Source: Paramacrobiotus metropolitanus (lineage: Eukaryota; Tardigrada; Eutardigrada; Parachela; Macrobiotidae). Taken from it: DNA of 64,000 bases. Made by a program: the position numbers and the translations under genes. This document shows positions 26,923 through 53,735 of this stretch, piece after piece. The notes beneath the pieces were generated by a model, which ran no database searches, was not told where the DNA came from, and saw only the letters and a program-made list of their open reading frames with translations. Position 1 is the first letter of the stretch, and each line of letters starts with the position of its first letter. Location of the stretch: the NCBI RefSeq assembly GCF_019649055.1, contig NW_026570270.1, positions 372,001-436,000 of the forward strand, written 5' to 3'.

Positions 26923-26974
26923 GTGTGTTAGCGCTGATAAATACTTGCTAAAGCGATACATACCGCTTTACTGG

Positions 26975-27523: not shown

Positions 27524-27534
27524 TACAGTAAGCC

Positions 27535-29556
27535 ACTGTAACTGAACGTAAAGGCAATGTAAAAGGCTGTTAATTCACCGTTGAGTCCTGAAAATCCATG
27601 TCCGGAACTGTGCACATAACGTAAGTCAAATTAAATGCAACGTAAAAGGCTGTTAATCCACCGTTAAGTCCTTGAAAATCCATGTCCGGAACTGTGCACA
27701 TAACGTAAGTCAAAGTAAATGCAACGTAAAAGGCTGTTAATCCACCGTTAAGTCCCTGAAAATCCATGTCCGGAACTGTGCACATAACGTAAATCAACGT
27801 AAATGTAATGTAAAAGGCTGTTAATTCACCGTTAAGTCCCTGAAAATCCATGTTTGGCAATATGCACATAACGTAAATCAACGTAAATGTAATGTAAAAG
27901 GCTGTTAATTCACCGTTAGTCCTGAAAATCCATGTCCGGAACTGTGCACATAACGTAAGTCAAAGTAAATGCAACGTAAAAGGCTGTTAATCCACCGTTA
28001 AGTCCCTGAAAATCCATGTTCGGCACTGTGCACATAACGTAAGTCAAAGTAAATGCAATGTAAAAGGCTGTTAATTCACCGTTAAGTCCCTGAAAATCCA
28101 TGTTTGGCAATATGCACATAACGTAAATCAACGTAAATGTAATGTAAAAGGCTGTTAATTCACCGTTAGTCCTGAAAATCCATGTCCGGAACTGTGCACA
28201 TAACGTAAGTCAAAGTAAATGCAACGTAAAAGGCTGTTAATCCACCGTTAAGTCCCTGAAAATCCATGTCCGGAACTGTGCACATAACGTAAATCAACGT
28301 AAATGTAATGTAAAATTGCTGTTAACTCTCTGTTAAGTCCCTGAAAATCCATGTTCGGCAATATGCACATAACGTAAATCAACGTAAATGTAATGTAAAA
28401 GGCTGTTAATTCACCGTTAGTCCTGAAAATCCATGTCCGGAACTGTGCACATAACGTAAGTCAAAGTAAATGCAACGTAAAAGGCTGTTAATCCACCGTT
28501 AAGTCCCTGAAAATCCATGTCCGGAACTGTGCACATAACGTAAATCAACGTAAATGTAATGTAAAATTGCTGTTAACTCTCTGTTAAGTCCCTGAAAATC
28601 CATGTTCGGCACTGTGCACATAACGTAAGTCAAAGTAAATGCAACGTAAAAGGCTGTTAATCCACCGTTAAGTCCCTGAAAATCCATGTCCGAAACTGTG
28701 CACATAACGTAAATCAACGTAAATGTAATGTAAAATTGCTGTTAACTCTCTGTTAAGTCCCTGAAAATCCATGTTCGGCACTGTGCACATAACGTAAGTC
28801 AAAGTAAATGCAACGTAAAAGCCTGTTAATCCACCGTTAAGTCCCTGAAAATCCATGTCCGGAACTGTGCACATAACGTAAATCAACGTAAATGTAATGT
28901 AAAGTTGCTGTTAACTCTCTGTTAAGTCCCTGAAAATCCATGTTTGGCAATGTGCACATAAAGTAAATCAACGTAAATGTAATATAAAAGGCTGTTTATC
29001 CACCGTTAAGTCCCTGGAAATCCATGTTCGGCACTGTGCACGTAACGTAAATCAACGTAAATGTAATGTAAAAGGCTGTTAATTCACCGTTAAGTCCTGA
29101 AAATCCATGTTCGGCACTGTGCACATAACGTAAGTCAAAGTAAATGCAATGTAAAAGGCTGTTAACTCTCTGTTAAGTCCCTGAAAATCCATGTTCGGCA
29201 CTGTGCACATAAAGTAAGTCAAAGTAAATGCAACGTAAAAGGCTGTTAATCCACCGTTAAGTCCCTGAAAATCCATGTTTGGCAATGTGCACATAACGTA
29301 AATCAACGTAAATGTAATGTAAAAGGCTGTTAAGTCCCTGAAAATCCATGTTCGGCACTGTGCACCTAACGTAAGTCAAAGTAAATGCAATGTAAAAGGC
29401 TGTTAATTCACCGTTAAGTCCCTGAAAATCCATGTTTGGCAATGTGCACATAACGTAACTCAACGTAAATGTAATGTAAAATTGCTGTTAACTCTCTGTT
29501 AAGTCCCTGAAAATCCATGTTCCGCAATGTGCACATAACGGAAATCAACGTAAGTT
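27535..29556 (-). repeat. 84-bp satellite array, left arm (about 24 units)
   Basis: The unit contains CTGAAAATCCATGT, TGTGCACATAACGTAA, GTAAAAGGCTGTTAA and CCGTTAAGTCC. Variants alternate between units (tccggaa/ttcggca/ttggcaa), some in higher-order order. Because 84 is divisible by three, the minus strand stays open over long runs as 28-residue repeats containing TYVMC and MDFQGLN. I regard these as non-genic: there is no start context, indels break them, and variation is not codon-biased. Confidence 0.92.
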
Positions 29557-29986
29557 CAGGATGACAGTTCTGCATCCTCAAGCATGTCAACTCTATGTAG
29601 GTTGAGTTAGCAAAAAAGATAAGGTTCTATATAATTTATATATTAGGTTTCCTTCTGGCGAATTGCTGATATTTTTATTGTAAGTCTTATCCTAATTCCG
29701 ATGGTTTCCACATGCCAAGTTTATTCACAACACCCCAGCAAAACACGACAACGGCGTAACATTGAGGAAAAGTAATTATCGACAAAGAAAACCAAAAAAA
29801 CATATGAAAGCATGAAAAACATAAGAAAACATAAAAAATTAAAAAAACATAAGAGAACAAAATAGCGATAAAGTTTTCGAAATAATGATTTTTATAAGAT
29901 TTTCATTGCAGTTTAAATTCGGTGGCGGTCTTTGGAGGATCAAACGCCCCATTTAAATTACGTGCAATGAAATGCGGTTGAACAAG
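29557..29986. other. Flank between satellite array and transposase gene
   Basis: Contains an A-rich stretch (about 29785-29860) with CATAAGAAAA-type units that is the reverse complement of the TTCTTATGTTTTC simple repeat at 46.4 kb. The rest is the 3' flank of the transposase gene. Confidence 0.5.
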
Positions 29987-32317
29987 TTAGGCAAGGCCAA
30001 GACGGGCAAGCTCAGTACGCCTACCAGCAAACAATGGTGTCACATTATTTTTCAAGCAAGATTCGTTGTACTCGTTTTTGCGCTTAATGAGGCGATGTAG
30101 GAAGAAAGCTTGATTTTCTTTGGACATTGAATTCATTTGCTTCTTATATTTCCCTAACCAAGCAAACGTCTGTTCTGCCGCCATGGTATTGAATTTATCG
30201 CACGTTGGATGATGAGTAAGGAACTGATCTGGATTGAAAGTTGACCGACACTGTTCCCGACAGTGATTTTGAATATGCAGCTTATCGATGATTTTGTTGA
30301 CGTTTTTCCACAAATCGCAAGGAAACGGTTCCGGTAAAGGTTCAGACATGGCCTTGAGCCTGGCAAAGTTGCACCTGCAAATGGCTTTATTGTTATTGCA
30401 AATGGGTTTATTGTAAAAATAATGGTGATGTGCGATACTTACATGTTATCATAGCATAGGAACAGCTTTTCCCGGTCACCAGATTCAAGTTTCAGGACAT
30501 ACTTTGAAAGCCACTCTGTGGCCGCAACAAACACCTGGCTCAAAGATTCAGACCTAGAAAAATAATATGCCATCGCGTTTACTTTATGTACGTTAGTTAT
30601 GAACTGTCTTAGCAGTCTCCGTCGGCAAACTATGAAGTTTTGAAAAATTGTACTTACTTGTATAGTGGCGAAAAACTGGAAACAGCACCGCAAGCGTGCA
30701 CGAACACTAAGTACCCACGACTGTAGTGTACGCCAGTTTTTCGTTCGCCGTGATTTTTTCGGCACCATGGCAGCGCGACCTTGGCATTACCGCAACCTTT
30801 GTGAGGGCCGGTTAGCAATGGAGAGTCGTTATAAAATTCATTACTCAACACTTCTTTCTGCACAATTGCCGTCTGTGAATCAGTTTCATTGAAAATTTCT
30901 CCGAAAGGTGGATTATTATCAGGATTACAAGCCAGAGCAAGCTGCACAATGCTATCTCCAGCCATTTCCAAAAGTTAGCCGTTCCGAGTTATTGGCAAGT
31001 TATGGCTTTTTGCTAGATCAGCATGATCGTCGCAATACAGTTGCCCGCATTTAGGTTCATTTGGACAAACGGAAGGCAACCTGACATGGGCAATATTGAT
31101 GGAGTTCTACAAATGACATCTTTAGGAGCTAAACGTGTCAGTTTATTTCCTCATTCCTTTTTTTTGAAAAAAAAATTACCTTCATTACCATCGCGCAGTG
31201 TCGGTGCGCAATCTTCCAAATGCCATCGAACACAACCAGGAACGGGCATCCACGACGTTTTCCAGTAGCCGAACAGCTGTGTGGATACAACTCTTTTTGT
31301 CGGATACCATCAAGAAACTGTTTGACCTCCAGTATGTCCAGTTTAGTGTCAGGAAAAGCAAAAGTCAAACACCGCTCGCGCAAGTCAAGTTCAATTTCAT
31401 TCACAAAAAACGCCTTGGACACAATTTTTTTCTTGAACGCTGAAATAACACCGTTTAAGTAAAGACGGTTTTCCAGTTCAGATGTTTCAGTTCAATTTCA
31501 TACCGAACGGGAATCGAAAAGTTGTGCGGCAGATTTCGGCAAAGGATTCGAAAGTTACGTGGCCATGCAGACTAGAAAACCAAAAATTTGCAGCCTGACA
31601 GCCTGATAATTATAACAGAGCGAGGAGATCTTACACGGAGTTAATCAAGAGATCGACAAGTTTCCTGTTCCAGAACACTTTTCCCGTAACTTGTAGGAAA
31701 AGCCGAGCTTCCGGATAAAGAAACCGATTTCCATAAGATTTCACGTAATAAGTGTTATAAGAGTATCTGTTGCCGCATTTTGTACAGTAAAATATGAAAT
31801 GGGTGCATGCGGACGGGTGTTCGTCAATCGAGTACAATATAACCTAATGGAATCAGAAACCAACATAATATCATTACAGGTATTCAGTCTGATATACCAG
31901 TTTTGTATATGTTGAGGTACCAAAACATATTTGATTAAACTTGTGTTCAATAAGTTTGTCGTAGAAACCGTAGGTACGTAGGTACCTGAGAAGCACTGAC
32001 CTTTGTTCCCTGAGTTATTTTAAAACTCAAAGGATCGCATCTGCTTAGGCATTGGTACAAGGGCGGGCAAAGCACAAACTGCGCAGAATCTTTGTTGCAG
32101 AATATGGTAGTAACATCGCAGTTTTTTTCGTTCAAAGCTGCCAACGCAGATTTTTCATCTACGTTAAAAGTTTTCGCCAGCATCTAAAGAAAAAGAATAA
32201 CAATGCAAAATAATATTGAGTATGATTAACCGAACTACATACAAAAGCGATTGCTTCAACAGGCATCTCCTTCGGAACATCTCTGAGTGCAGGTATTAGT
32301 GAATGCAAAGAAGCCAT
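29987..32317 (-). pseudogene. KDZ (Kyakuja-Dileera-Zisupton) family transposase, damaged
   Basis: Seven exons read leftwards: 32317-32243, 32183-32001, 31843-31635, 31439-31180 (or 31189), 31106-30658, 30553-30443 and 30374-29987, about 558 codons. Recognisable landmarks in order are: a Cys pair YCTKCGN; VVFDGIWKI, the first catalytic-region motif; a Cys/His cluster CPNEPKCGQLYCDDH; KTGVHYSRGYLVF; KSESLSQVF; LCYDNMC; DKLHIQNH-x3-QC; and AAEQTFAWLGKYKKQM with the final acidic residue, followed by LIKRKNEYN. These fit KDZ DDE transposases, which cut and paste large elements. An in-frame TAA sits at 30975-30977. Exons 3 and 4 disagree by one base next to an A7 run. This copy is therefore probably inactive. 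It lies just inside the left terminus, a usual place for a transposase. Confidence 0.75.
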
Positions 32318-32783
32318 AATTAATTAGGAGTATTGAGAAAAAAGTTACACAGGAGTGTTACAAACAACGCTTTCTGAAAGCAGTTAAAACTGCCGCTCAA
32401 CGGATTTTATAGAAGGATTTTCATCGTTCAACAAATCTCATTACTGGGCAAAAGCATGTTGCAGAATATACTGCAAAATGTTCAAACATAGCGCTCTAGT
32501 AGCCGAAAAAACGTAGCTTCTGCGTTACTAAGGCAAGCCTGCAGCTCACAACGTACGTCTTTATTTTGTACTGAACAGCGAATCAGGAAAATTGTGAACG
32601 CAAGATAGCATTCCATATGCATTATTAAACCAACCGGCAATATGATATCTTCGGTCATCGCATGACTTATAAGCTTTTGATGCATACATCATTTTACATA
32701 TCTAGAAAAGGCGAGCGGTTAACTGTGCTCGAGTTTCAGTTGAAGATGCCGTTAACTGCTTAACCTTTCAATTTGTTTAAAAA
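32318..32783. promoter_or_regulatory. Divergent intergenic region between transposase and helicase genes
   Basis: The transposase (minus) and the helicase (plus) are transcribed away from this 466-base interval, so it should hold both promoters. I see no clear TATA box and no other gene. Confidence 0.4.
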
Positions 32784-35424
32784 ATGGCGCTAAGTTTTTT
32801 TAAAGGAACAACTGACTGGTATGAAAAAGATCATTGCACATATTACGGCGAGAAGGATAAGCATGACTCAAAGACTTCCTTTGTTCTTGGGTTTACTTTG
32901 AGAATTACTCAAGGTGTGTGCAAAGGGGAATCTCTAGAAAGTGGTTGGTTGTGTGAAATAAAAACCTGCAACCTTCAAAATGGGAGGTAAGTTGCGATAA
33001 ACAAAGGCAATCATGTTCAAATAAAAATTTTTACGACAGAGGTTGGCTACGTTAGCTTGATCTTTCTAGTTTTGTGAACGGTAAATCTGAGTTGCGCAAA
33101 TATTTCGTCTTTTTGAAGGCATTCAGAGTTATGAAAATTTGTTTAGGTCTTGCTACTTGACAACGTCCGGCTTCAAAAGTGTTCAGCGTTTTTTGTCAGA
33201 CATCCAAAGCACTCCCGGCATGCCGCCGTTACTCGCGCCATCGCTGAATGGGGACAAGCTTAATTCATATATTGTTTGGAAGCGAACCCAATACGACAAG
33301 TAAGAAAATAAGCTTGGTCAGCATAATTAAATGGTATAAGGTTTAGTGTTCATTTTTTATCGAAATCCGAAATATTAAATGCGGTTTTATTGCTTGCTGG
33401 TTCAGGAAAAACATATATTTAATATTGAATTATTTACACGATCGGAGTTACGGAATCATGAACTTAAATTAGCAGAAAGGTTGTGGTTTAAAATGGTCAT
33501 AACTCTAGGATCCAGTGGATCAGTTTTCGTGACAGTATACAGCTGAAGTAACTAATCAGCACACCAAGTTATTCTTGGTATACTTTAATTTTGCCTACGA
33601 TTACTACTTAAGGCGTTGCTCCCAACGGAAGCTGACTCCAGATAAGCCTCCGGCAGAACACCGTAACCTTCAAGATGACGGGGAAACCTATATTTTTGGG
33701 CCTAATCTGCATTACAAACGAAATGCTGGAAAAGTGGAACGGATTTCCGCGGATCAATCAGAATACGTTTGGGTGTCGCATTATTCGAAGCTGACTAATA
33801 TCATCCCGTTGCAAATCTATTCCGGAACAGAACCGTGCCATCTTCTTGAAGTGGTTCGAGAAAAGCTGGAAAGAGATGGCATGCCCGATGTGTTTTTGAA
33901 CTTCTTGTTAACCTGCGGTAGGTCTTTGATACTGAAGAAGTGGTGTTTCGAGATTAACTGAAATTCGAATCGGATGTTGTAGGCCACACCTCCATCATCA
34001 GTTTGCATTACCGGCTTCTTGTGAAAACCGTTGGTCACGTTCCAGCACTCCTTTTGTGTGGGCCCCGAAACGCAGGGAAAAGCTTAAACGCCAACGTTTC
34101 GACATCATTTTGCGGAGCAAACGCTCAGCAAATCTGCATTTACAAAGATATGACGTTGACAAGGCTCCGGGAGCGTTACACCGAAGACCACTTCCCAATA
34201 ATCGTTCATGACGCTGAAGACGAAAGCCTCGTCGCAACCGCACTCATGGAGTGCTACGAAGCGCGACCAGTGCTAAAACATAACTCGAATCAGACTCCTG
34301 GGACAACAATTTGTTTCACCTGTAATGAAAAAACCATTTCCATGCTTCGCAAAAAGTGAGTTCCACCATGAGCATCTAGATATATGCGCTTCATAATGTA
34401 CAATACTTTTTTAAGCTTCGCATCACTGAGCCGAGCAGTAGTGATACCGATGCTTGTGGAATTCAAAAGTGCCACGCGCGAAGAATTCCGCCAAATTGCA
34501 CACGGGAGAGAAACAGCTTCGCAGTTCTTTGAGGCCATCTTAAACCTGACCAACCACGATATCGAAGAGCTCATGCAGCGCATGCATGAGCTTCGATATC
34601 CAATTAAAAGCGGCAATGCCGATCCTGACGGACAGCCATAATCGTATTGTCGACGGTTATGCTATGTTAGTGGCAGCAACAGAAATGGTAGGACTAACTG
34701 ATGACCGAAAATACAGATTTTGTTGCTGTTAATGTTGTTTCTTTAGTTTGTGAAAAAATGCGGATGGGATGTGTGGGCAACTAAAATTGAAGGTTTCGTA
34801 ATGCAACAACTACTTCCTGTTGCGCAGTATTACTATGAATACACTGCCGAAACCACAATTGGGCCATCGCTGGCTATTTTTGATAGGGCCTTGCAAGCTA
34901 GGATTTGTGAAGTAATACACAAAATTCGGGGAGCAGCTCCTGATGAGGTATGGATTACAAAACGGCATAAACTCAACTAATATCCTTTAAATGTGTTTAT
35001 TACTATCTTTGACTAGACTCGTTTTAGACACAATTGTTTGCTTTTTTAGTTAAAGAAATGCTTCGCGGTTACCAGCAGTCTGCCGTATGTGGCCTTTAGG
35101 GAGCAAGACTTTACTCCACTGATGAATGTTCACGCGGATAGCTGTGCATTTGATTTTTCGGATTTGAAAAAATTACCAGGCACCGTTAACTCTCATCCCG
35201 TGGGAATATCTGGCAAAGTTCAACGCGCCATTTGTGTCCTGAAATCACATTTTACGGACGAAGAGCTAGAATTTTTATCGGCAAGAACTAGTTCACTTCC
35301 GGGAGCAGTGATGGGTAAAATTAACGGGGCAAACGCTAATTACTTACGGAATATAATCCTTCCAAAGCAAATCCTAATTATGCTAGAAATAATTAAATTT
35401 CTAGGAAGAGATAGATTTTTTTAA
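32784..35424 (+). pseudogene. SF3-like helicase/ATPase gene, multi-exon, frameshifted
   Basis: Exons recognised: 32784-32986, 33147-33299, about 33536-33917, 33983-34355, 34416-about 34696, 34755-34946 and 35050-35424. Exon 4 carries a P-loop, GPRNAGKS (34060-34083), then PIIVHDAED (Walker B-like) and ICFTCNEK (motif C-like hh-x-T-x-N). This order, followed by a SRAVVI segment, fits superfamily 3 helicases of replication proteins. The N-terminal exons have a GWLC-x-IKTC and CYLTTSGFK region that I do not recognise. Near 34615 the frame slips by one base: ...IKSGN is followed in another frame by ILTDSHNRIVDGYAML. The exon 2/3 phase also does not close. A replication or DNA-unwinding role for the element is inferred. 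Alternatives are another STAND/AAA-like P-loop ATPase. Confidence 0.6.
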
Positions 35425-36022
35425 ATAAACAAAATAAACAGTGTTTTGTTCTAACGTAAGTGTAGGTAAGATGCTAGCATAAGGGTTTAGCGCTAACTTT
35501 GAACGGGTTTATGATTACATAGTTCTTTCAGCAGCTGCTTTGTTGTTAATAACGTTCTAGGTATTAATGTAGACTCAAAAATGATAGCAATAAAGAGCGG
35601 TTGTCAATAAATAGCAATAGAATGCGTTTATTGCTGGCGACCTTGGTCACCTTGTGAAATACGTGACTTATTTACAGCGAGCATGGCACGACTGGGAAAA
35701 AGGCTGTCCAATCTCCGTTTAAATCCGCTCAGGCAACCCGACTGCCGGCAACGTTTATTCCGTCTCACACGTCAACCCAACTCGAAAATCTTTATGAAGG
35801 AACGCAAACGGTAATTGTCGACAATAAAAAACACGAGATGGCTCATAAATTCTTGAGCCGAACGTGAAGAAACCGTACGAATAAAACCATTGCTTTTCAG
35901 GATATTCAATCCAGACAAGTAATATTACCAGATGTATCAGCAATTGCTAGTGATTCTGGTTCAACGCCTTCTGAAGTAAGTATTATAAGCAAAAATAGCC
36001 CGGAATCACGATTTTAATAAAA
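35425..36022. other. Spacer containing a small basic ORF
   Basis: Mostly non-coding. The one noteworthy frame is listed separately at 35683-35814. Confidence 0.5.
35683..35814 (+). CDS. Small very basic ORF (43 residues)
   Basis: The ATG frame begins MARLGKRLSNLRL and ends MKERKR. Arg and Lys make up over a quarter of the residues, with two cysteine-free basic clusters. A donor-like CG|GTAATT overlaps the stop, so it may instead be a first exon. It could encode a DNA-binding peptide of the element, or be chance. There is no homologue that I recognise. Confidence 0.25.
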   Translation: MARLGKRLSNLRLNPLRQPDCRQRLFRLTRQPNSKIFMKERKR

Positions 36023-36235
36023 ATGCAGCCACAGGAACCAGCAATCCAAGAGGGTATGGAAACACTCGACGACGAGAAAAGTCCGGACCGCAACGACGAA
36101 ATGGTAAAAACGTTTTGTACAATTCGGTGAGACTAAAATTTAAAAATGTTTGAATATTGTTTGCAGGCTCCTCCACCTGGTTTAAGCGTGGGCTCCCGAT
36201 CGTTATTCAGTCAGAGCGGGAAACCAGCGAAATGA
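36023..36235 (+). CDS. Small acidic disordered protein (49 residues), possible
   Basis: Two exons, 36023-36103 and 36167-36235, join in phase 0 (ATG|GTAAAA, TTGCAG|GCT). They encode MQPQEPAIQEGMETLDDE... and then a Pro/Ser/Gly segment. Its TGA stop overlaps the ATG of the following zinc-finger reading frame (AAATGATG-type overlap at 36232-36235). It is either a real short protein, the first part of an alternatively spliced zinc-finger transcript, or a 5' UTR reading frame. The family is unknown. Confidence 0.35.
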
Positions 36236-36602
36236 ATGCTACATTTAGGGTATCTTCAGGTGTGTAATCTGAGGTGTTCTTACCCTATCAAATTCCAATT
36301 ATTTTGTGCGGCTAGAGCCGGTTCTTTAACGGATTCCAGCGGGATCGAAAGAAGTTGACGGATTATTGGACGTGGCAGTTAGTTCAGACGGTATGGCCCC
36401 GAAGCGACACAAACCGAAAAAGTCACCATGTTGTCCGGAGTGCAAGGGATTTGAGGAAGCCGGAAAACCTTTACCGGTTTACAAATGCAAGCAGTGTCAA
36501 CAATCTTACCATATGAAGTGTCAGGTGACCCATCCGGTTTTTTGGCCTGAGCGTACAAAATGTCAGACTCGGCTGTGCAATTCTTGCCGGAAAATTCTTT
36601 AA
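36232..36602 (+). CDS. PHD-type zinc-finger protein
   Basis: Exons 36232-36259 and 36340-36602 join in phase 1 (donor GTGTGT, acceptor TTCCAG) and give 96 residues; the frame also stays open from within exon 2. The C-terminal half is CPEC...YKCKQCQQSYHMKC...CNSC, a C4-H-C3 zinc-binding arrangement with the PHD signature C-x2-C, C-x4-H-x2-C and C-x2-C. PHD fingers bind histone tails or act in protein contacts. A basic KRHKPKK patch precedes it. In a transposon it could target chromatin or assist the transposase; that is inference. The exon 1 assignment is tentative; the zinc-finger exon is convincing. Confidence 0.6.
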
Positions 36603-37571
36603 AATTACGTGTCACCTGCGAGTAGCAACATGTTTGTTGACTACGGTCATATTTGCACTTGCCCAATTCAAAATGTTTTGGCATCTTTTGGCAAACGCAA
36701 TTAACTTTTATTTTATCTGCGTAAAATTTGTCTGCTGTGGATTTTTTCTTCCTGCATTTCATTCGACTCATGTTCGTTCATACTGATTGACATGTTTTTA
36801 TTCACTGATATTCATTGATATATTATTAACTTACATATTACTGGTTTTCTTTTTTTGTTCTGGGATTGAAACCATGTCGGGTAATAATGTGGTGTAAATC
36901 AATTTAAAATAAATGATGTCCACAATTACCGAATGCGAATGTGAAATTGTCGTACAGAACAAAACAATTCAACAATCTAAATACCTCAAGTAAGAGTGCA
37001 ATTTGCTTCATGCAATAACACACAAAAAGATCGCAAATTTTTTTTGTGAAAAAATGTTGAAGGTGAAATATCAAACAAGAGCGCCTGAAATTCAAATTAG
37101 CAACCCGACTTGAAAGTCCAAGACATTTTGTGGACAAAATTCTGTTTCTTTCCACGTATAATTTAAGGGTACTCTTACAGACAACCCCTAAAACCCCCCT
37201 ATATTATGGACTCCCCTTTTCGCACCCTTTTTATTATAAGCATTTTTGTGATTGATATGATATACGATAGATTCTGATAATATGTAGTACAATAATTTTT
37301 TCTGGTGCCGATGTAAGTACATGAGATTTTTTAACCCATAAAAGGACAGCCATTTTGTGCAACAGTACGAACTGGTGAGAGCCGTACAGCATTTGAGAGC
37401 CGTACATTCCGTTCCTGCTGTTATATCTTTTGTTAGTTCTGTATGCACCTTACTTCCTGCGCTTCGGGATTGCAATGGGTAAGGTCGCCTGGACCTGCAA
37501 GACCATTTAACTCTCCTCAAGTCCCTTTTTGCGCATATACGAAAAGATTCCGCTCACTGTCTTACTTGCAG
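36603..37571. other. Spacer with weak exon-like piece
   Basis: Mostly AT-rich. A short exon-like segment near 37438-37476 (TTAG before, ATG|GTAAGG after; reading LYAPYFLRFGIAM) could precede the exon at 37572. Minus-strand Cys-containing frames here overlap the zinc-finger exon and are shadows. Confidence 0.4.
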
Positions 37572-37763
37572 CATCCGTTTTACCACTACGACATCAGAGA
37601 AATCGCTGTCGTAAAGGTTCAGCGGCACGATTTCGATTTCAACTTGCAGCGGCGGCAAACCGTACCATCACCGGATTCCATGCTGATGACTTCTGATTTT
37701 TTTATGCCCACTGAATTGACCATGCGCTGGCATGATCATATTCTCCGGCTGATGCCGAATTAA
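37572..37763 (+). CDS. Terminal exon of an unknown element gene
   Basis: Acceptor CTTGCAG is followed by 63 codons and a stop: HPFYHYDIREIAVVKVQ... to ...HDHILRLMPN. Amino-acid composition and the clean acceptor make coding likely. The upstream exon probably ends at ATG|GTAAGG near 37476, which is phase-compatible. No family is recognised. It sits between the zinc-finger and membrane-protein genes on the same strand. Confidence 0.45.
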   Translation, partial: HPFYHYDIREIAVVKVQRHDFDFNLQRRQTVPSPDSMLMTSDFFMPTELTMRWHDHILRLMPN

Positions 37764-39099: not shown

Positions 39100-40070
39100 A
39101 TGGATCTGAAATACTTCGTAATGGCTGCTGTGTTAAGTTCTTGGATTATCTCCAGTGCATGTGGTTTTGGAATGCCGATGGGTTGGAGAATGCCAAAATT
39201 TCCTCAGTTACGGAACCCCTTTCGCCCTGTACCCCAGCCAGCCGGGCCCGGAAGTCCTTTACTGAACAACGTGGGCAAGAACCTGGCAGGACGGCAGAGA
39301 AAGCCGATAGTATGTCGGTTTAAAAAGATTTTTGCGACCAACGTCCCTATGCTCGGACAAGCTTTGAAGGCTGGAGCTGGAGTTGCTATCGGCAGTGCAG
39401 TAATTGGTGCGGTCTCAGGAGCGATTGCCAACAGTGCATACGAAAGCGGATCTGGATCCCAAGGAGTCGTGAAGGATACTTTTTACTCAATCCCTGCGGA
39501 AGTCTCTACTACAGACAACAGTGTGCCAGCAACACAGTCCACGGTTATCCCCCAGAAAAGCGTGCCAGAGAACTCGACAAAAGGGACCACGACCTTTATC
39601 GCACCAACTTTTTTGCCAGAAGATAACCGCTCCACTACGATTTATATAGTGTACCTTAGCATTGGAAGCGTGACGGGAGCAGTTGTCTGCATGGGCGTCG
39701 CGGCAATCCTTAGTCGTCGTAAAAAGGTGAGAGCCAAAGGAAATGCATTTTTTTTTGCTTTTGTTAGTGTTAAACAATGACTTATTTTATTACCATTCAT
39801 TTTGAAGCATTTTACTAGCTGATCAAGATGCAGTGTAACAGCTGCTCTGGACTATTATCTAATTTGCAAAACGTTTTTAAGAACTTGCGTGCGGTTTAAC
39901 ATGCGAATTAATTTCAGGCAACACCCAGTTCGTGGAACGTTTTGAACAGGATTCCATCTAAGCAACATGCTGTTGGCAACCGCCCGCCCTATCGTTTATT
40001 TACGTTATTGTATCCGGCGTATGTTCGTTCATACTTTTTTAATTTGCCAATGTCGCCAGTGTATTTCTGA
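39100..40070 (+). CDS. Type I membrane protein of the element, unknown family
   Basis: Exons 39100-39726 and 39918-40070 join in phase 0 (AAG|GTGAGA, TTTCAG|GCA) and give 259 residues. ATG 39100 is chosen because it starts a good signal peptide (MDLKYFVMAAVLSSWIISSA); the frame is open further upstream. A Pro-rich region and a basic GRQRK precede an Ala/Gly/Val-rich hydrophobic segment (AGAGVAIGSAVIGAVSGAIA). Next comes a Ser/Thr-rich stalk with NST and NRS glycosylation sites, and then a TM helix (YIVYLSIGSVTGAVVCMGVA) with a basic stop-transfer RRKK at the exon end. Exon 2 would be the cytoplasmic tail. No family is recognised. It is undamaged, in contrast to neighbouring genes. Why a transposon would carry it is unclear; a captured host gene is the simplest guess. 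Confidence 0.65.
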
Positions 40071-42660: not shown

Positions 42661-42676
42661 GACGAACATACCGGAG

Positions 42677-43210: not shown

Positions 43211-43615
43211 TTGCATATGCAAAATGGAATGTATGTACGGTGAAAAACGTATAATCATGTCTTTATATGTTTTCTGGTTAATGTTTTATGCGTTTGATAA
43301 TATTGCCATGCCGATTAACGTTCTTATTGTGGTGTTAACTCTGTATTGCTGTATTTTTTTATTATCAAATTTTGATTGTATCCTTTTTTGGTTTGTTAAC
43401 TTAACCGATCAATAAACTTGAACTGTTACGATAAAACAATTAGAAATTCGTCCTCACTTAAATCTTGAAACTTAATGCGTTTTCAACAAGTACGTTTTAC
43501 GATAAACGACAATAAGTTTTTTTAGTATAGAGACAGCATTCTACAGGCGATATCATTTTTTGCACAAAGTACTCATAAAGCGGTATAAGTTTAAAATTTT
43601 GCAGTGCAATATTCT
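43211..43615. other. No gene recognised
   Basis: AT-rich 3' flank of the preceding ORF. A hydrophobic frame at 43224-43415 is T-rich and unconvincing. Confidence 0.45.
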
Positions 43616-45022
43616 AGTACAAGAAACAGCATCGGCTTTGCCTCCGCGTTTCTTGTGGTCCAGGGCCACTTTATTTGAATTTGAATGAATATTTATTAGA
43701 ATAACATGAAACGAAACGAAACATGATCGGTACATGCAATAGGGCAAACACGAATTTTATATGAAAAAATTGATAATCATGTAATGATTTTCTCAACCTT
43801 GAAAGCATTCCCTCTGGCTGTACTTATAGATAATTTTTACGATATAAAAATTCCCTACCCGAAAAGAAACCCGAAATATCAGTCTATAAAGTATGAAACT
43901 CGAAACAGTTATAGTGCACTGGATCACTAGCTCGGTGACTCGTCACTTCTCTAGCTCTGTTTACTGGAAAGTGGTGTCTGTCCGGCAGTGTATGTCCGGT
44001 CACTAGTGGTAACTCGATTACTTGCTTACCTAACGGTTCTGTTCGACGGACAGTAGTGATAGCTCGGTCGCTAGTTCACCTAACTGGGTTTCTGCGCTGG
44101 ACAGTAGTGATACCTTCCGCACTCGTTCCCTAACAGACTTTGTCCACTGGACAGTAGTGACAGCTCGGTCACCCGCTCACCTCGTAGGTTCTATGCACGG
44201 ACAGTAGTGGTAGCTTAGTCCCTCGTTCGCCGAACGGGCTTTCTGCGCCGGACAGCAATGTTAGCTGGGTCACCCGCTCACCTACCGGGCTCCTTGCACG
44301 GACACTAGTGGTAGCTCGGTCACTAATTCACTTAACGGGGTTTATGCGTCGGACAGCAGTGTTAGCTCGGTCACCTGCTCGCCTAACGGACTTTTTGCGC
44401 CAGACAGCAGTGGTAGCTCGGTCACCCGCTCACCTACCGGGCTCTGTGCACCAGTTTACCTATGCGCTTTCTGCACGGGATAGTAGTGGTACCTCGATCA
44501 CCTAGGCTTCGCCTCTGCGTTTCTTGTTGTCCACGGGCGGTCGATTCGAATTTCTGTTTTCATCGTTTTTATTCGTTCCTTTTGGCTTTGTCAACTCGAC
44601 TACAGTGGTAGACTGGTGGATCGGTATCTCAGGTACACTGTACAATAATGACAGCTCGGTCACTCGTTCCGTAACGGCTTTGTACACTGGAAAGTAATGA
44701 CAGCTCGGTCACTCGTTCCGTAACGGCTTTGTACACTGGAAAGTAATGACAGCTCGGTCAACCGCTCACATAGCTAGTGGTAGTTCGGTCGCTCACTGGC
44801 TTAGCGGCTATTCAAACTAGAATATAGTGGTATTTCGGTCACTCTCTGAAAAAGCGCTTTGTGCCCTGAACAGTGGCGGTAGTTTGGTCTATCATTGATG
44901 GAACAGACAGACGTTAGATATGTACTTAGTCGTTTTTGTCGTAATAACGGTCTGCTAATTAAATTCATTCTGATATTTTAATTAGTGGGAAATACTTCAG
45001 TATAGTATTTTAGTTGGTTTAC
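43616..45022. repeat. Minisatellite-bearing dispersed repeat, copy 1
   Basis: Starts near AGTACAAGAA, with CCTCCGCGTTTCTTG and GAAACATGATCGGTACATGC in its left flank. It continues into tandem units of about 51 bp with the core TAGCTCGGTCACCCGCTCACCTAACGG and GGACAGTAGTGGTAG, and ends with AATAACGGTCTGCTAA and a TTTTAATTAGTGG tail. Copy 2 (49027-50872) shares both flanks and the minisatellite, with more units. The open frames across it reflect the 51-bp period (17 codons) and are not genes. Partial left-flank sequence recurs inside (about 44508-44560), so the repeat is itself rearranged. Confidence 0.85.
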
Positions 45023-45839
45023 GTTAGTACGAAAAAATCTGGTTTTTGGCAGATTTACTAATGTAGCACGTTTAAAAAGTAATTTTATTCCATATATGAC
45101 GCGTTTGAGGGAAGAAAGAAAGAAAACAAGCGAACTGCAAAATGTACAAAGTCTGCCTATTGTATTAGTATACTGTATGCAATACTATCTACTCAGATTA
45201 ATTTTGTTTGGCCACGCTTTTTTTACCTTCAGCAGATGAAATTGGTTTTTAATTATATTGCGATGGTGCACTGTTTCTGCAAAAACTAAGATTTTAATGG
45301 TGCCCTGGTAAGAACCAAAATAAAGAGCACGCGCAAATGACAAAATAGGAAATAAGACAATACAATGATCAGCAAATTCCCACCTACGACAACCGGCAGC
45401 AGTTCTTCACAATGTCGCTCTGCCACACGGAAAGATTTTGATGGTTCTGATGTATGGATTCAGTTTCCAGAGCCTGGCTTGTTATAACTGCACTGATAGC
45501 CTTTTAGCCTCTTACGCAGTCGTTCGTTTGTAAGATGCTATGGAAAAGATAGGAAGGCGTACAAACAGCTCTCTTCTGCATTTTAATATCGCTATAATTG
45601 CTCTCAATGTAACAGCTCTGGCTAGATAGGCGATGACTGGATCTAAATCGCAAAGCACAGTGAGACTGTTTCAGACAAAGAAGTCCAACATTGCACTTCC
45701 CGGCTCACTTCTTCATCTGCCAAAAGCGCAAGCAGTGGCTATCGTCTCTTAGCAGAAACAGTCCATATTAGTAAACAGTCGTTGTGCGAAAAAAGTTGCA
45801 ATTAATTCGAACCATGGCGGAGCTTATCGAAGGCCCCGT
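45023..45839. other. Upstream region of the JmjC gene
   Basis: No clear exon. An ATG at 45814 (MAELIEGP) lies one frame off the first recognised JmjC-gene exon and could be its true start if one base is missing. Confidence 0.4.
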
Positions 45840-46254
45840 TTGAACTTGACCAGAGAAGAATTTTGCAATGCTTATAAACAGTGTTTCGGCACACTTTCTC
45901 GTGAGAAAGATTGTGCAATCTGGCTCGAAAAAATTGGAGCATTCTTGATCGATTTTAATGCCGTCCCATCACAGTGGAACACATACTTTGAAACCAGCGG
46001 GCTAAAGAATGCCATGAAAAAGGGTTCGACTTTGGGTGATGTCCCTTATCCAGTGGGTGCTCAGGACGCGCACCGGCGCATTAACCTTTCTCATAATTGC
46101 GGATGGACCATTATTGAAGAAGGTGACACGGCAGCGACAAGGAAAAACGTGTCTTCCCTGGCAGCCCAAAATCTACACGTCTCGTAAGTCGGGATTCTTT
46201 TATTGATTGTAATCGTGCGTACTTATTTTCCTATCAGTCAATGTTTTTTCTATT

Positions 46255-46870
46255 TTATTTGATTTTATTTTATTCTATTTTGTTTTTTTTATTCTTTTTT
46301 TATTTTATTTTGCTTGATTGAAAAATTGCAATGTTTTCCACACATACGCATTTAACAGAATTCAAAAAATTGATGTTTTAATTATCAGTCCATGCGCCTT
46401 AATCGGGGAATTGTCATCTTTTTTAGTATACTTAGTTCTTGTGTTTTCTTATGTTTTCTTATGTTTTCTTATGTTTTCTTATGTTTTCTTATGTTTTCTT
46501 ATGTTTTCTTATTTCGTACTCTCGTTTCTTATTCTTATTTCTTATTCTTATATCTTTTGTTTTCTTATGTTTTCTTATTTCGTACTCTCATTTCTTATTC
46601 TTATTTCTTATTCTTAGATCTTTTGTTTTCTTGTGTTTTCTTATTTGGTACTCTCATTTCTTATTCTTATTTCTTTTTCGTATTTCTTTCCCGCATTTCG
46701 GTTTCGTACTTCTTATTCTCATTACTTTTTCTTATTTCTTTCCCGCATTTCGCTTTCGTATTTCTTATCTTTATTTCTTTTTCGTATTTCTTTCCCGCAT
46801 TTCGTTTTCGTATTTCGTATTTCTTATTCTTATTTCTTATTCTTTTCTTGCCTGCGTCTTATTTTTTATA
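46255..46870. repeat. Pyrimidine-rich simple repeat
   Basis: TTTTATTCTATTTTG-type runs are followed by repeats of TTCTTATGTT (10 bp), then TTTCTTATTC and TTTCCCGCATTTCG variants. All three frames are open and encode Phe/Leu/Ser/Tyr runs, which are artefacts. It lies within an intron of the JmjC gene. The reverse complement of its unit occurs near 29.8 kb. Confidence 0.9.
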
Positions 46871-49026
46871 TTTCTCGTTCGTTGCTTCGCACTCTCTATT
46901 TCCAACTTGCGTTCGCACCAGAACCGTGCAGCTGTGGAAAATAGACCTCGCGTTAGATTTATAAGTTAACCCGACAGCGTTTTCTAGATGGAAAACCACC
47001 AGTAAAAATCGCAATTTTTAAAACGCTAGACCTATCGTCATTCCCGGAACAACACATGCATTAGATAAAGCAAAGATAACTCTTTGCCCAGTGAATTTTC
47101 GTTTTTTGGTAAAACACACCATAACAGAGCCACATCGCTCACAAAACATTCAAAAAATAACGTGAAGTTCTACGAAGTGTATGTAAATTGGCAGTCATGG
47201 CAGAAATTTGAAATTAAATCAGTGATAACTTTATGTGAGTATCTAACAATTTCAGTATCCGTCGAAATTCTACAGCTCTTGTATAAAAAACTGTGCATTT
47301 TCAAAAACAGCTGGTGGAAAATCCACCGCTTGGGCATTGGCGTAGGAGATTAACAGGTTGCCTGAACAGGCACTGTCATCAAAGCCGCACCCTTGATATA
47401 TTTCAGCCGTTGCACGCTAGGTAAGCAGCCAAGCCTCATCATTGACAGTGGATACATAGCAATTGACGACATCTGAGTGCTTCCGTTATAGCTAAAATAG
47501 TAACAAACATTTTTTTGATTGTATCACATTGTTTTCTTCATCCGTAATAGGAGCAAAACAATAAAACGACGTTGTGATCGAAGCAGCCAGACCTATATAT
47601 GGCTGACTGTGATCGGTTTTGGGCACATGTAAGCTAGCGCAGCCCAGCATACACCGACCGGAAATCACAATTTTTTTTTATTATAAATTCAGCCACAAAT
47701 CTTATCATGATGAATTAATTTAAAAAACTAACTCTTGTAAACAGCTACCAAAGCCATGTTGATTGGAGTAAACCAAGTGGCCACGACGTTGTGTACAACA
47801 AAATTTATTTGGCGTCGCACCGGCAACTACTTTCCTCACACCTTACGTATAGTATATTGTCAATGCCCAAGCGGTAGAATTTCCACCTACAATTCAAATT
47901 TAAAAAAATACCCATCTCTTGAAAAAATTAAATGTGTTCACGTAAATTTTGAAGATTTCAGGCTCTTTAGCCAATTAACTTTGCGCTCGGTGTGCGGGGC
48001 GCACAGCCGATTTACTTTCGCCTCGATTGTCGAAGCGCATAGCCAATTCGTAAAATTAAAGTAGGTGACCCCGCGCAAAATGCGCATAAAAAATAAGTCA
48101 AGAATAATTCACTGCAAAAAATAATTGTTTACAACTACATTTATAGGGTTTATTAAAATGTATTTATAAGGGAATTGTATTATTATAGGCTTTACATTTG
48201 AGCGCGCTATGGTGAAAATAAAAGTCTGGCATAAGCTTAAGTATTTAAATTACAATGCTGCTATTTTGCTGCTAGGTAAGAAATTTAAATAGACTATTTA
48301 CCGTTACAAGCATTCGTTCTCCAGCTGAACTGAAAGCCGGCCTAAATGCAGAAAGAAAATGTCAAAAACTTAATAACCGCATACTAAAGTTTGCTGTCGA
48401 CCGTATGATAAAAGACCAGAAGTGATTGATATCTTTAAATTTTGAGCGGTCATTGTTAACGTTGACCACCCCATAACGTAAATGTGGGGATGCTAAAGTC
48501 GTGTACCTGAGTCGGTAATAATAATTCCGGTGAAAAACGCTTGCTCTCAATTGGCACTACTTTTCCATTACAGTAAACCTTAGCCATTTGGCATTCATCT
48601 TGACCATATTTCATAATAACCACATATTTAGCAGCTCTGTTTTGACTGTTTTTTTAGAGCTGAAGATCTCGAATGGATGAATAAAATTGCCGATGATTCC
48701 GCAGAAATTTGGAATTATGTCGAATTGATTTCCGGCAAAAGCGTCATCTACCCTCAAGCTCTAGCCTACTCGTTAACGCCCACAGTTTTGAAGACAGCTG
48801 CATCCTGGAGGACGTACCAAATATCAACTACTGCCATACCGCATTTGAGGCTGTTTTCAGTAATTTCATGGGAGAAGGGGAGGGATTATCATTGCCTTGG
48901 TTATTGATTGCTCCAACCAACAGTACTGCTGCAGAACACGTTGAGGACGAACTGTTCTGCAGCATTTCTGTTAATTTCGGTACGTTTGTGTTATATAATT
49001 TTTGTACACACTATGTAACATTATTA

Positions 49027-50872
49027 AGTACAAGAAGCAGCCTCGGCTTCGCCTCCGCGTTTCTTTGGACCATGGCCATTTTACATGTATTTGAAGTTGA
49101 ATAAATATATATTAGAATAACATCTATATTTCGTCGAAACATGATCGGTACATGCGATAGGGCAAACACGAATTTTATATGAACATCAGTTCATGGTTTT
49201 CTCAACCTTGAAAGCATTCCCTTTGGCTGTACATACAGATAATTTGTACGATATTTCCTACCCAAAAAGAAAGCCGAAATAGAAATTCAAACCACTGACT
49301 GTGCACTGGATCACTACGGGTATTTTGGTGACTCGTCACTTCACTGGCTCTTTTCACTGGAAAGTGGTGTGTGCCCGGTAGTGTACGTCCGGTCAGTAGT
49401 GGTACCTCGATTACTTGCTTACCTCCCCGGTTTTGTACGCCATGCACTAGAGAAAACTCAGTCACCCCGACTCACCCGTATCACCTAACGGGCTCTGTGC
49501 ACCGGACAGTAGTGATAGCTCAGTCAAACAGTCAAACGTTCACCGAACGGGTTTCTGCGTTGGGCAGCAGTGGCAGGTCGGTCACTCGTTCACCGAACGG
49601 GCTTCTGCGCCGGACAGGAGTTAAATCTCGGTCACTCGTATCTCCTAATGGGCTTTGTACACTGAACATTAGTGACATCGCGGTCACCCGCCCACCTACC
49701 GGGCTCTGCACCGGTCAGTAGTGACAGCTCGGTCACCCGCTCACCTAACGGACTTTCTGCGCTGGACAGCAGTGAAAACTCAGTCACTCGCATCACATAT
49801 CGGGCTCTGTGAACCGGACAGTAGTGGTAGCTCGGTCGCTCGTTCACCGAACGGGCTCTCTGCGCCGGATAGCAGTGGTAGTTCACTCACTCATTCACCG
49901 CGCGGGTTTCTGCGCCGGACAGCATTGGCAGCTCGGTCAGCCGCTCACCTACCGGGCTTTGTGCATGGACATTAGTTGTAGCTCGGTCGCCCGCTCACCT
50001 AACGGACTTTCTCTTCCGTTTTAGTACATCGCGGTCACCCACTAACCTACCGGGCTCTCTCCACCGGTCAGTAGTGACAGCGCGGTCACCTGCTTACCTA
50101 CCGGGCTCTCTGCACTGGTCAGTAGTGACAGCCTGGTCACCCGCTCACCTAACGGACTTTGTGCAGGGACAATAGGTGTAGCTCGGTCGGCCGCTCACAT
50201 AACGGACTTTCTCTCCCGTATTAATGACACCGCGGTCACCCGCTCACCTACCGGGCTCTCTACACCGGTCAGTAGTGGAAGCTCGGTCAGCTATTTGCAC
50301 GGACGGCAGTGGTAGTTCAGTCACTCGTTCCCTAATGGGCTCTGTACACTGAACATTAGTGACAGCTCGGTCAGCCGCTCACCTATCGGGTTCTGTGCAC
50401 TGACAGTAGTGGTAGCTAGGTCACTAGTTTACCTAACGGGGTTTCTGCGCCGGACAGCAGTGGTAGCTCGCTTACCCGCTCACCCACCGGGCTTTGTGTA
50501 TCGGATAGTAATGACAGCTCGGTCAACCGCTCACATAGCTTTACATAGTGGTAGTTCGGTCACTCACTGTCTTAGTTGGCTATTTTAACCAAGATATAGT
50601 GATATTTCGGTCACTCGCTGAACTAACGGGTTTGTGCACTGAACAGTGACGGTAGTCCTGTCTATCACTGATTGAACAGACAATCACACAATCGCAGTAG
50701 GATGGTGTAGCGATAGCTGCTCGGCCGGCACTTTTTTAGAAATGAATGTCCTCGATGACAGCGTTAGATATGAAGAGGTTCTTACCATAATAACGGTCTG
50801 CTAATAAGTTCATTCTGATATTTTAATTAGTGGAAAATACTTTCATATTTTAATTGTATTTTAGTTGATTTA
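49027..50872. repeat. Minisatellite-bearing dispersed repeat, copy 2
   Basis: Inserted in the JmjC-gene intron 46 bases after the donor. It has the same flanks and 51-bp minisatellite as copy 1, about 440 bp longer through extra units. Copy 1 and copy 2 lie in the same orientation. There are no terminal inverted repeats and no coding capacity. It could be a non-autonomous element that carries its own minisatellite. Confidence 0.85.
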
Positions 50873-52394
50873 CCTGGCAACACTGCCTGGCTATAAAACA
50901 TACCACGACGATAATTATTATTTTAATAATTTAGTTGGTGAAGATAGTCAAACTCTTCCGCTTTGGCGTTCGAAGCGGGATAGGTTTAGAAAGACATGAA
51001 TTCTATCTGGCCGGGTTTTCGACTACGGGCTTTCAGAAATAATATTGATTTTCGTCATTCGTTTCTGGTTTGCCGGCTCTGATGTATCCCATTCGTGGCA
51101 ATATAGATCTGATTCTGGATAACATGTAACTACATACTGGGTATTAAAAATGAAATTTAAAGCACTTCTTCATAAGCTATCTTGCTCGGGGATTTTACCC
51201 ACAACACATATTGCCTTTCCCCGCTGCATTTGGATAGACAACCACTGTCTAAAAAACTTTCCCCTGTTTCTGCGCTTCCAACCTTATTCACTAGCGTCTT
51301 GGTACCGTTTCCCACTAATTTTTAAAACGCATAATAAATTTCAATGAGCAGAATTATTTTTTACATCCTTTAACTTCATTAGGACCGGGTTGGAAAATAT
51401 GGATCGTTGTACCAGGTTTTCAGACCCGTAACATGGTGCTCCTTTATGCCTACTTGGATTCGCTGAATATTGCCTCCAAAGATGGTATGTAGCATTTCAC
51501 TGCTAATTTTCCCAAATTTTTTATAACCTTTGTAGGCTCCACCGCTTGTGGACACGAGTATCGCTTCAAGAATTTTTCCTGCACTCGAGCTCTGTTCGCC
51601 AAGTTCAAAATCCAACCACATTTTTTCATCCAACACCCAAATACAGTAGTGTACCTGGGTCCGGGAATTCTACATAGCGTGTACAATCTGGGAGGCTCTG
51701 CATCACAGGCGCGCAACTTTGTTGACGAACACTGGTTAGCTGTTACAAACGCTTCTTTGGCACTAAGAAACCGGGTAAGCGTGTACTTTATTCTCATAAC
51801 GGTTTTAATGTATTTGTTTTGTCTATTCAAGTGCCGAAAGATGAAAAGGGACGAAACTACGGCAGCCTTGCATCAGTGGAGCCAGCTCCTGCGAGACCGT
51901 CTTTTAGCAACAACCGTAGCTGATATAAGATACATAAACTCCATACGTTTTCCTCCAAAAGTTGGGAAAAAATGCACGTCATGGAAACTACCAACTACAA
52001 AGTTTTTAAAAATGCATCCCGGGGTTTTTCTTCAAGAAACGCTATGCCGAATACGTGATTTGCCGTCAGTCAACTTCTCAGTGGAACTAATATATGATGA
52101 TGTGTTCCGTGGTTTCTTGTCCCACGTTTCTGTCAAACCTGAAAACCAAACAAGACAGAAAAAAGAAAGACCGTCTCCATAGGCCGCCCAGACCAAACTA
52201 GCGATTTGCTTCACCTTCACGTCTGCACTACTCATTCTTGCAACAAAGTTTTCCAGTCAAGAGCGGCTTTGCTACTACATCAACGCGGCATACACAAAAT
52301 GCGATACGTGTGCAGCGATTGTTTCGAAAAGCCTGTGTTTACCACTCCACAATCCCTGAAATATCATCAAAACGCCTTCCATCGCATAGGTTAG

Positions 52395-52929
52395 GATATT
52401 GGCAGCACACTACTGATTCTAGATTCGGAAATCCATATAACGCACAGCTTTATTTACTGCATAAATTTTATGACATAGCATTTAAAAAGGTCTTGGGGAA
52501 ACTGACTTCTTTTAAATTGTAATGATTTTACGACGACGTAAATTTCGGAAATTTTACTGTGCAGCAACAATATTTTCCTATTTTATTTTATTTCCAGGAT
52601 CCTCCAACAAAGCAGCACAACACAAACGCCGCGGTCGGAAAACTGCGCAGAACCTTCTGATCGCTACTTCTGCAAACAACAACGGTTGATTGTATAGCCG
52701 AATGTACTTTATGGTAACCGACGCTTTTAGGCCACATTTATGATTACTTCCGCTGCTTGATATTGGTTTACGCAGACACCATAAAGGTGATGCGGCATAA
52801 CAAATAGTTGTTATCAATTCTGCGTGCAATCATGGTGATTTCTAATGAATTTTTTGCCGGACACAGACATGGCTGTGTTGACAGAATTTAACATTGGTTC
52901 ATCACCTTTACGTTACATTAAAGTTGATT
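52395..52929. other. Flank between JmjC gene and right satellite array
   Basis: No gene recognised. It includes the 3' flank of the zinc-finger exon, and degenerate satellite fragments begin near its right end. Confidence 0.45.
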
Positions 52930-53612
52930 TAATTTGCTTACGTTGATTAAAGTTTCCAAACACGGTGTTTCTGTTGATTTTCGTTGATTTACATGGTATT
53001 TACGTTAAATCTTTTTATTTTACTTTATGTGTACAGTGTCGGATATGGATTTTCAGGGACTTAAGAGAGAGTTAACAGCAATTTTACATTACATTTTCGT
53101 TGGTTTACGTTATGTGCACAGTGCCGAACATGGATTTTCAGGGACTTAACAGAGAGTTAACAGCAATTTTACATTACATTTACGTTGATTTACGTTACGT
53201 GCACAGTGCCGAACATGGATTTTCAGGGACTTAACAGAGAGTTAACAGCCTTTTACATTACATTTACGTTGATTTACGTTATGTGCACATTGCCAAACAT
53301 GGATTTTCAGGGACTTAACGGTGAATTAACAGCCTTTTACATTGCATTTACTTTGACTTACGTTATGTGCACATTGCCAAACATGGATTTTCAGGGACTT
53401 AACGGTGAATTAACAGCCTTTTACATTGCATTTACTTTGACTTACGTTATGTGCACATTGCCAAACATTGGATTTTCAGGGACTTAACGGTGAATTAACA
53501 GCCTTTTACATTACATTTACGTTGATTTACTTTATGTGCACATTGCCAAACATGGATTTTCAGGGACTTAACGGTGAATTAACAGCCTTTTACGTTGCAT
53601 TTACGTTGATTT
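52930..53612 (+). repeat. 84-bp satellite array, right arm (about 8 units, inverted)
   Basis: Same unit as the left array but reverse-complemented (ACATGGATTTTCAGGGACTT, GGTGAATTAACAGCC). Units near 52930-53060 are degenerate, and those closest to the terminus are the best conserved. Together with the left array it forms the element's long inverted termini. The plus strand is open over several units for the same arithmetic reason as on the left. Confidence 0.9.
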
Positions 53613-53735
53613 ACAGTGGCTTACTGTAACGAGAGCTCATGTCGTTTTTTTTTGCAAACAAATTGTGCATTATGTGAATTCTGCAGCATATGTGTAGCTT
53701 GTAGTATATATAAACCTGACATGGATGTTGTGCAG

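Follow-up and report, generated by a model that had tools for sequence, protein, structure and literature searches.

A 26-kb mobile KDZ-type element in the tardigrade Paramacrobiotus metropolitanus with an ATPase-PHD partner gene and a JmjC gene

Results

Positions 372,001 to 436,000 of contig NW_026570270.1 of Paramacrobiotus metropolitanus (C50:372001-436000), a stretch of 64,000 nucleotides that we call the window, contain an element of 26,201 bp that is one mobile unit: it exists in two full copies with shared ends, one copy is bordered by an 8-bp target duplication, and the site of the other has a paralogous empty counterpart. The element carries a KDZ transposase, a divergently oriented gene for an ATPase with a PHD-like zinc finger, a membrane protein, a gene of unassigned family, and a JmjC-domain protein. 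We think it likely that this is a complete giant cut-and-paste KDZ transposon in which the ATPase-PHD protein acts as a helper and the JmjC protein as an anti-silencing enzyme. The genome searched comprises 169.8 Mb in 533 contigs. The features of the element, in window coordinates, are the following.

27471-27475: left flank AATTC, a 5-bp direct repeat with 53677-53681
27476-53676: whole element, 26,201 bp; homology with the copy in contig C4 ends there, and the paralogous empty site spans the junction
27476-27541, plus strand: left terminal inverted repeat, imperfect in its outer part, perfect over its inner 18 bp (27524-27541)
27538-29553, plus strand: left subterminal satellite, about 24 copies of an 84-bp unit
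29987-32183, minus strand: KDZ transposase with a D-D-E triad, about 560 codons in 7 modelled exons; one frame break in the window copy
32781-36602, plus strand: P-loop ATPase with C-terminal PHD-like zinc finger, a single multi-exon gene divergent from KDZ; start approximate, frame broken in the window copy
39100-39780, plus strand: membrane protein, 226 amino acids, with a related segment in contig C420
42087-43207, plus strand: gene of unassigned family, conserved in C420 over three segments, the last two of which are joined by a tentative splice
43600-44760: nested dispersed host repeat with a 51-bp array, not cargo
45753-52391, plus strand: JmjC-domain protein with C-terminal C2H2 zinc fingers, multi-exon, 6.6 kb; start approximate
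49027-50470: second nested copy of the dispersed host repeat, inside a modelled JmjC intron
53019-53614, minus strand: right subterminal satellite, the 84-bp unit of the left array inverted, about 7 copies
53611-53676, minus strand: right terminal inverted repeat, perfect over its inner 18 bp (53611-53628)
53677-53681: right flank AATTC, direct repeat of the left flank

Two copies with shared ends and an empty site

The second full copy lies in contig C4 (2379451-2406205) and is 26,755 bp long. Outside the satellite arrays and one low-complexity stretch, the two copies differ by 40 substitutions (0.18%) and 28 indel events over 22,831 aligned bases, so the move is a recent one. Their flanks differ, and both copies terminate at identical bases. 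The C4 copy is bordered on each side by GTTTTGTC, an 8-bp target duplication without mismatch. For the window copy there is an empty site on the same contig (C50:439700-441000), where a paralogue of the window flank aligns with the two joined flanks over 731 columns at 76%. For the C4 copy, no empty site was found among the best 40 of 68 candidates.

An earlier, sequence-only reading of the window had recognized the element by an 18-bp perfect terminal inverted repeat and by inverted satellite arrays. Both are present: the repeat is exact at 27524-27541 and 53611-53628, and the 84-bp unit occurs at both ends in opposite orientation. The coordinates drawn from that repeat enclose a real element and stop 48 bp short at each end, since homology with the C4 copy reaches 27476 and 53676; beyond the 18-bp repeat, the two ends continue for 48 bp as imperfect inverted repeats of each other. 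Terminal inverted repeats are a feature that the element has in common with Zisupton. The same reading had proposed a genome search with the satellite for further bounded copies and a search for empty sites, and had named unrelated contents between the same termini as the observation that would speak against an element. The right array matches the window, C4 (2379499-2406143), and three short stretches (68-74%) in C108, C420 and C21; the sole other full copy, in C4, has the same contents as the window copy, and the empty site of the window copy is paralogous rather than allelic.

At the three diverged loci, C420, C108 and C21, local alignments stop at the window element's right-hand terminal base, and their end sequence is similar to the window element's left end as well. 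In C420 and C108, the element end is directly followed on its outer side by a 10-bp array (ACCTAACGGA), and C21 has a matching stretch (the stretches are L058 53-699, L015 961-1421, and L017 approximately 1771-2203). This array may be part of the end of that family, or a preferred target.

A KDZ transposase and an ATPase-PHD gene inherited as a pair

The exons of the transposase and of the other genes were located by conservation between the window and C420, and the splice sites are modelled from the conserved segments. The assignment to the KDZ class, already made in the sequence-only reading, is borne out in three ways. First, the KDZ exon of the window matches C65:648378, C129 and C515 with E-values from 3e-18 to 2e-22, and these are the three loci where the Pfam family PF18758 scores over cut-off; membership of the window transposase follows from this match. 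Second, the C420 orthologue has a CxC5 domain (PF18718, E 1.2e-10, 42 bits for a cut-off of 26.9). Third, there is a D-D-E triad, with the second D and the E present in 31 of 31 alignment rows and the first D in 11 of the 12 rows covering it; C4 and C420 are each entered twice in this alignment, and the identification of the residues is our reading. KDZ relatives are present among Hypsibius proteins, and CxC5 scores over cut-off on two of those examined (P0003, P0004) and has no match on P0002.

The ATPase gene begins approximately 600 bp from the KDZ gene, in the opposite orientation. The sequence-only reading had described a helicase gene and a separate PHD gene. This division we reject, on the evidence of the C420 gene model and of an NCBI model for the C4 copy (P0001, 645 amino acids, LOC129580752, Paramacrobiotus metropolitanus), in which ATPase and finger are in one protein encoded by one spliced gene. 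That reading had also counted at least six non-repeat genes; a multi-gene cargo is there, and we count five conserved coding units.

The arrangement of the two genes recurs through the genome. A search with a KDZ exon gives 55 matches at 51 loci, and one with an ATPase exon 33 matches at 30 loci. There is a KDZ match within 15 kb of 20 of the 30 ATPase loci, for an expectation of 0.27, and the two are divergent in all 20 cases. For the ten pairs in which both sequences are available, representing four lineages between which the ATPases are only 22-37% identical, KDZ and ATPase identities are correlated with a Mantel r of 0.96, a value reached by none of 20,000 permutations. Such matched divergences imply that the two genes have been inherited together and not swapped. 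On these sequence comparisons, the head-to-head KDZ-ATPase pair is established as an old inherited module in this genome, and the earlier suggestion that the element "acquired" its helicase is not supported: the ATPase is an old partner found head to head with KDZ at 20 genomic places. Outside this genome, protein searches for ATPase relatives matched the C4 copy alone among the best 8,000 candidates scored, which does not imply absence elsewhere.

The Walker A lysine and an HD pair do not vary across 14 aligned ATPase sequences; an Asn occupies the motif C position in all 13 that extend to it, and all 8 that reach the SR motif have it. In the window lineage the Walker A has the form GxxNTGKS, and the alignment also contains a Walker B of the form hhHD, a motif C resembling hTxNE, and an SR motif that looks like an arginine finger. 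In some KDZ-type ATPases (L064, L070, L071, L074), the residue preceding the Walker A lysine is Trp instead of Gly, giving TWKS, TWKT or SWKT.

The sequence-only reading had proposed an SF3-like helicase. The motifs fit this; profile matches are weak and mixed, and none is significant. An SF3 assignment is possible from sequence. If it were correct, the ATPase could be a replicative helicase, the element would replicate in excised, extrachromosomal form or transpose replicatively, and KDZ would be its integrase. One of the 14 members has a weak match to the papillomavirus E1 helicase (E 0.084), and four of them weakly match a phage "DNA primase" family (best E 0.0019), in agreement with the motifs; comparably weak matches point to other ATPases: TniB (4 of 14 members, best E 0.014), nSTAND3 (0.0048), a clamp loader (0.0063), DNA polymerase III gamma/tau (0.0066), Orc1/Cdc6 (0.055), IstB (0.12) and AAA. 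The Pfam scan, which covered 20 of the 135 open reading frames (ORFs) listed in 26500-54500, reports no polymerase or primase family above threshold in the 20 element ORFs, and the close copies found are only two. We regard the replicative explanation as doubtful, and favor an ATPase that assists a cut-and-paste transposase.

The finger of the ATPase protein has a Cys4-His-Cys3 spacing that fits a PHD in the window, C420 and C65 genes. Its profile matches are sub-threshold (MTF2 PHD, E 0.015; Pfam C1, E 0.004, below cut-off). Weak finger matches also adjoin the KDZ loci at C96 (E 9e-4) and C192 (E 0.009), and no PHD-type finger is found at C335 within the approximately 2.5 kb covered downstream of the ATPase exon. 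Most other ATPase loci are covered by stretches too short to judge.

The JmjC and membrane proteins and the diverged relative in C420

The JmjC and membrane-protein cargo of the sequence-only reading also stands. PF02373 scores over cut-off on the spliced window model (E 4.7e-12), and the HxE...H site is retained (as HVE and ILH). The zf-C2H2 match on the downstream part of the gene has an E-value of 9e-4, below cut-off. The JmjC frame has 300 codons in C4 versus 229 in the window, and the finger part is out of frame in the window and in frame in C4. The nearest solved structure is KDM5B, at only E 0.013, and none reaches E 0.01 or better. The TET/JBP families have no Pfam match in the element; its dioxygenase matches JmjC. 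By its sequence, the JmjC protein is predicted to be KDM-like, of the histone-demethylase type. Fragments of window-type JmjC are found at C11, C127, C108, C21, C25 and C14, those at C108 and C21 beside a related satellite end.

Other JmjC-family matches occur near KDZ or ATPase loci (C74 at 14 kb, C17 at 23 kb, and C65 at 30 kb from the ATPase); these three cases, compared with approximately one expected by a hand estimate, are not convincing. Separately, JmjC matches of equal profile score are found in unbroken frames at C74:667175 (792 codons), C65:517157 (792 codons) and C122:119344 (504 codons; L076), one of them 14 kb from a KDZ locus. These are perhaps another mobile JmjC family.

The five coding units (KDZ, ATPase-PHD, membrane protein, unassigned gene, and JmjC) all recur in C420. 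Over aligned segments, the amino acid identities with the window are 60% for KDZ, 57% for the ATPase, 43% for the PHD part, 61% for the unassigned gene, 33% for the membrane protein, and 43% for JmjC. Compared with the window element, C420 (L058-L060) has the KDZ-ATPase-PHD block turned around with respect to its other genes.

This recurrence bears on whether the window holds an element at all, or a composite of several, an alternative raised in the sequence-only reading. Such a composite would consist of several transposons and host genes, unrelated to one another, that were caught between satellite arrays and copied in one segmental duplication. The two nested host repeats and the inverted block of C420 are what such a composite might contain. 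We reject it as extremely improbable, given that both copies have the same terminal bases in different flanks, that the C4 duplication is exact, that an empty site exists, and that a gene set diverged to 33-61% identity recurs in C420, which argues against a chance composite.

The membrane protein has an N-terminal hydrophobic, signal-like segment, a Gly/Ala-rich hydrophobic segment, a C-terminal hydrophobic segment, and two N-glycosylation sequons. Together with the related segment in C420, the giant size of the element, and the precedent of Teratorn (PMC6431247, excerpt), these segments could be taken for an envelope-type protein of a virus-like element that is integrated in the genome, took over a KDZ transposase and can exit the cell. 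The 20 ORFs scanned lack genes for a capsid, a packaging ATPase, a protease or a polymerase; no relative of KDZ turned up when viral contigs were scanned once; and the ATPase instead pairs with KDZ at many loci. We consider a virus-like element very unlikely, and retain the cut-and-paste transposon.

Proposed mechanism and its weighing

In the explanation that we favor, the transposase would bind the terminal repeats together with the subterminal arrays, which are inverted to each other and would offer multiple sites per end, and would then cut and join. The ATPase-PHD protein would help transposition, either in the assembly of the transposase or in the choice or preparation of the target, and its finger would read histone tails; the helper role is suggested by the co-inheritance with KDZ and by the analogy with Tn7 and Mu. 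The C2H2 fingers would bring the JmjC protein to DNA, where the removal of repressive histone methylation would allow the element to be expressed or mobile. In tardigrades, a phylum reported to be without DNMT1 and DNMT3, JmjC would fill the role ascribed to TET/JBP in fungal KDZ transposons. The absence of DNMT1 and DNMT3 was reported for two tardigrades examined (PMC8821070, excerpt). In a six-frame scan of our genome PF00145 has no match, for which the controls that gave a signal were all prokaryotic and a split gene might be missed. The anti-silencing proposal fits both observations.

A more far-reaching version, which we put forward as a possibility short of an even chance, is that of a two-component machine in which a DDE transposase has as its obligate partner an ATPase bearing its own chromatin reader, such that target choice or activation is tied to the histone state, with the JmjC eraser added in one lineage.

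Several observations weigh against the favored explanation, among them the limit just given for the controls of the PF00145 scan. PF18758 has no match reaching threshold on the window's own transposase exon in the Pfam scan. The flank repeat of the window copy is 5 bp (AATTC) only. No KDZ match lies within 15 kb at 10 of the 30 ATPase loci (one is at 16.1 kb), nor an ATPase match within 15 kb at 31 of the 51 KDZ loci, and there are close kin among the 20 pairs (for example C56 and C92, with 93% and 90% identity in the two proteins; the window and C4, closer still), so they do not represent 20 independent events. Frame breaks affect KDZ, ATPase and the JmjC tail of the window copy and, in C4, KDZ, the membrane gene and perhaps more; the C420 JmjC frame contains stops. 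Matches to the window JmjC are found at 3 of the 20 KDZ-ATPase pairs only (window, C4 and C420). Between the window and C420, pN/pS is 0.31-0.58 in conserved segments with pS at 0.75-0.86 (synonymous sites saturated), and these segments were chosen because they are alignable, which lowers the ratio, so that whole-gene ratios are probably higher. Some of the frame breaks, single-base indels especially, may be assembly errors. Of the breaks noticed, none is common to the window and C4 copies, and the parent element may therefore have been intact.

The scarcity of JmjC among the pairs, the stops in C420, and the fact that JmjC and membrane genes have the highest pN/pS (0.55 and 0.58) are also what one would expect if these two genes were passengers without a role in the life of the element. 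The retention of HxE...H in the window copy, the recurrence of both genes in C420 despite saturated synonymous sites, and the dioxygenase independently carried by fungal KDZ elements (PMC12730594, excerpt) all speak for a function, and we judge the passenger alternative to be unlikely.

If the more far-reaching version is true, KDZ transposons would have recruited dioxygenase erasers twice, against DNA methylation in fungi and against the methylation of histones in an animal that lacks DNA methylation. Eukaryotic DDE transposons are generally regarded as needing no ATPase helper of the bacterial Tn7/Mu type. The co-inheritance of KDZ and ATPase over deeply diverged elements of one genome makes the ATPase-helper question testable in an animal. 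A demethylase-type gene on a transposon, where DNA methylation is reported lost, would form a contrast to the fungal KDZ elements with TET/JBP, and is directly relevant to the question of how transposons evade silencing.

Nested repeats and neighboring sequence

The 51-bp arrays within the element were considered as cargo and rejected, as they are copies of a dispersed host repeat with at least 93 matches genome-wide (among the best 40 of 479 candidates scored). A TTCTTAT-type low-complexity array at 46244-46849, in a modelled JmjC intron, differs in length between the window and C4. To the left of the element, 19212-26931 holds four successive ORFs of 335-364 codons that look by eye like multi-membrane receptors and have no Pfam match; for the flank downstream of the fourth there is a paralogue at C50:439.9 kb. 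Beyond the right end, 56970-58895 is a 641-codon ORF with a reverse transcriptase domain (RVT_1, E 3.8e-9).

Comparison with known systems

In the part of the open literature searched, we found no KDZ transposon described with a JmjC gene, nor one paired with an ATPase or a helicase; in the text of a review of giant transposons (PMC6431247), KDZ and Zisupton do not occur. Zisupton is listed among the repeats of Hypsibius and Ramazzottius (PMC11071193, excerpt).

The closest known systems are Zisupton/KDZ elements, which have the same KDZ-type transposase with a CxC5 cluster. The Pristionchus Zisupton, like the tardigrade element, has a multi-exon gene and terminal inverted repeats, and no target duplication was detected for it (PMC9297572, excerpt). 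An 8-bp target duplication, as at the C4 copy, is reported for Zisupton (PMC12730594, excerpt). The Kyakuja families of Laccaria are reported to have 7-bp duplications and no terminal inverted repeat. The tardigrade element differs from these in its length of 26-27 kb, its transposase of approximately 560 amino acids, its head-to-head ATPase-PHD gene, its subterminal satellites, and its JmjC and membrane genes; in the literature searched, we found none of these features reported for KDZ elements.

TET/JBP and JmjC proteins are both 2-oxoglutarate/Fe(II) enzymes. Fungal TET/JBP KDZ transposons provide a second case of a dioxygenase on a KDZ element, where it is said to aid escape from silencing (PMC12730594, excerpt). 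The fungal enzyme acts on DNA, whereas the tardigrade element has a JmjC protein with C2H2 fingers that would be of the histone-demethylase type.

Teratorn and the Mavericks also combine large size and accessory genes (PMC6431247, excerpt); unlike them, the tardigrade element has no viral hallmark gene in the 20 ORFs scanned.

AcademH, KolobokH and Helitron have transposase classes that differ from KDZ. They are, as is the tardigrade element if its ATPase is counted as one, eukaryotic DNA transposons with a helicase, and their helicases are of the DEAD/Helicase_C or PIF1 type (PMC10799480, excerpt).

In the bacterial transposons Tn7 (TnsC), Mu (MuB), IS21 (IstB) and Tn5053 (TniB), a DDE transposase is co-inherited with an ATPase, as it is here. 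They work by an AAA+ helper mechanism, and TniB and IstB are among the weak profile matches of our ATPase. The tardigrade element differs in being eukaryotic and of the KDZ class, with spliced genes and a PHD-like finger, and shows no significant sequence relationship to them.

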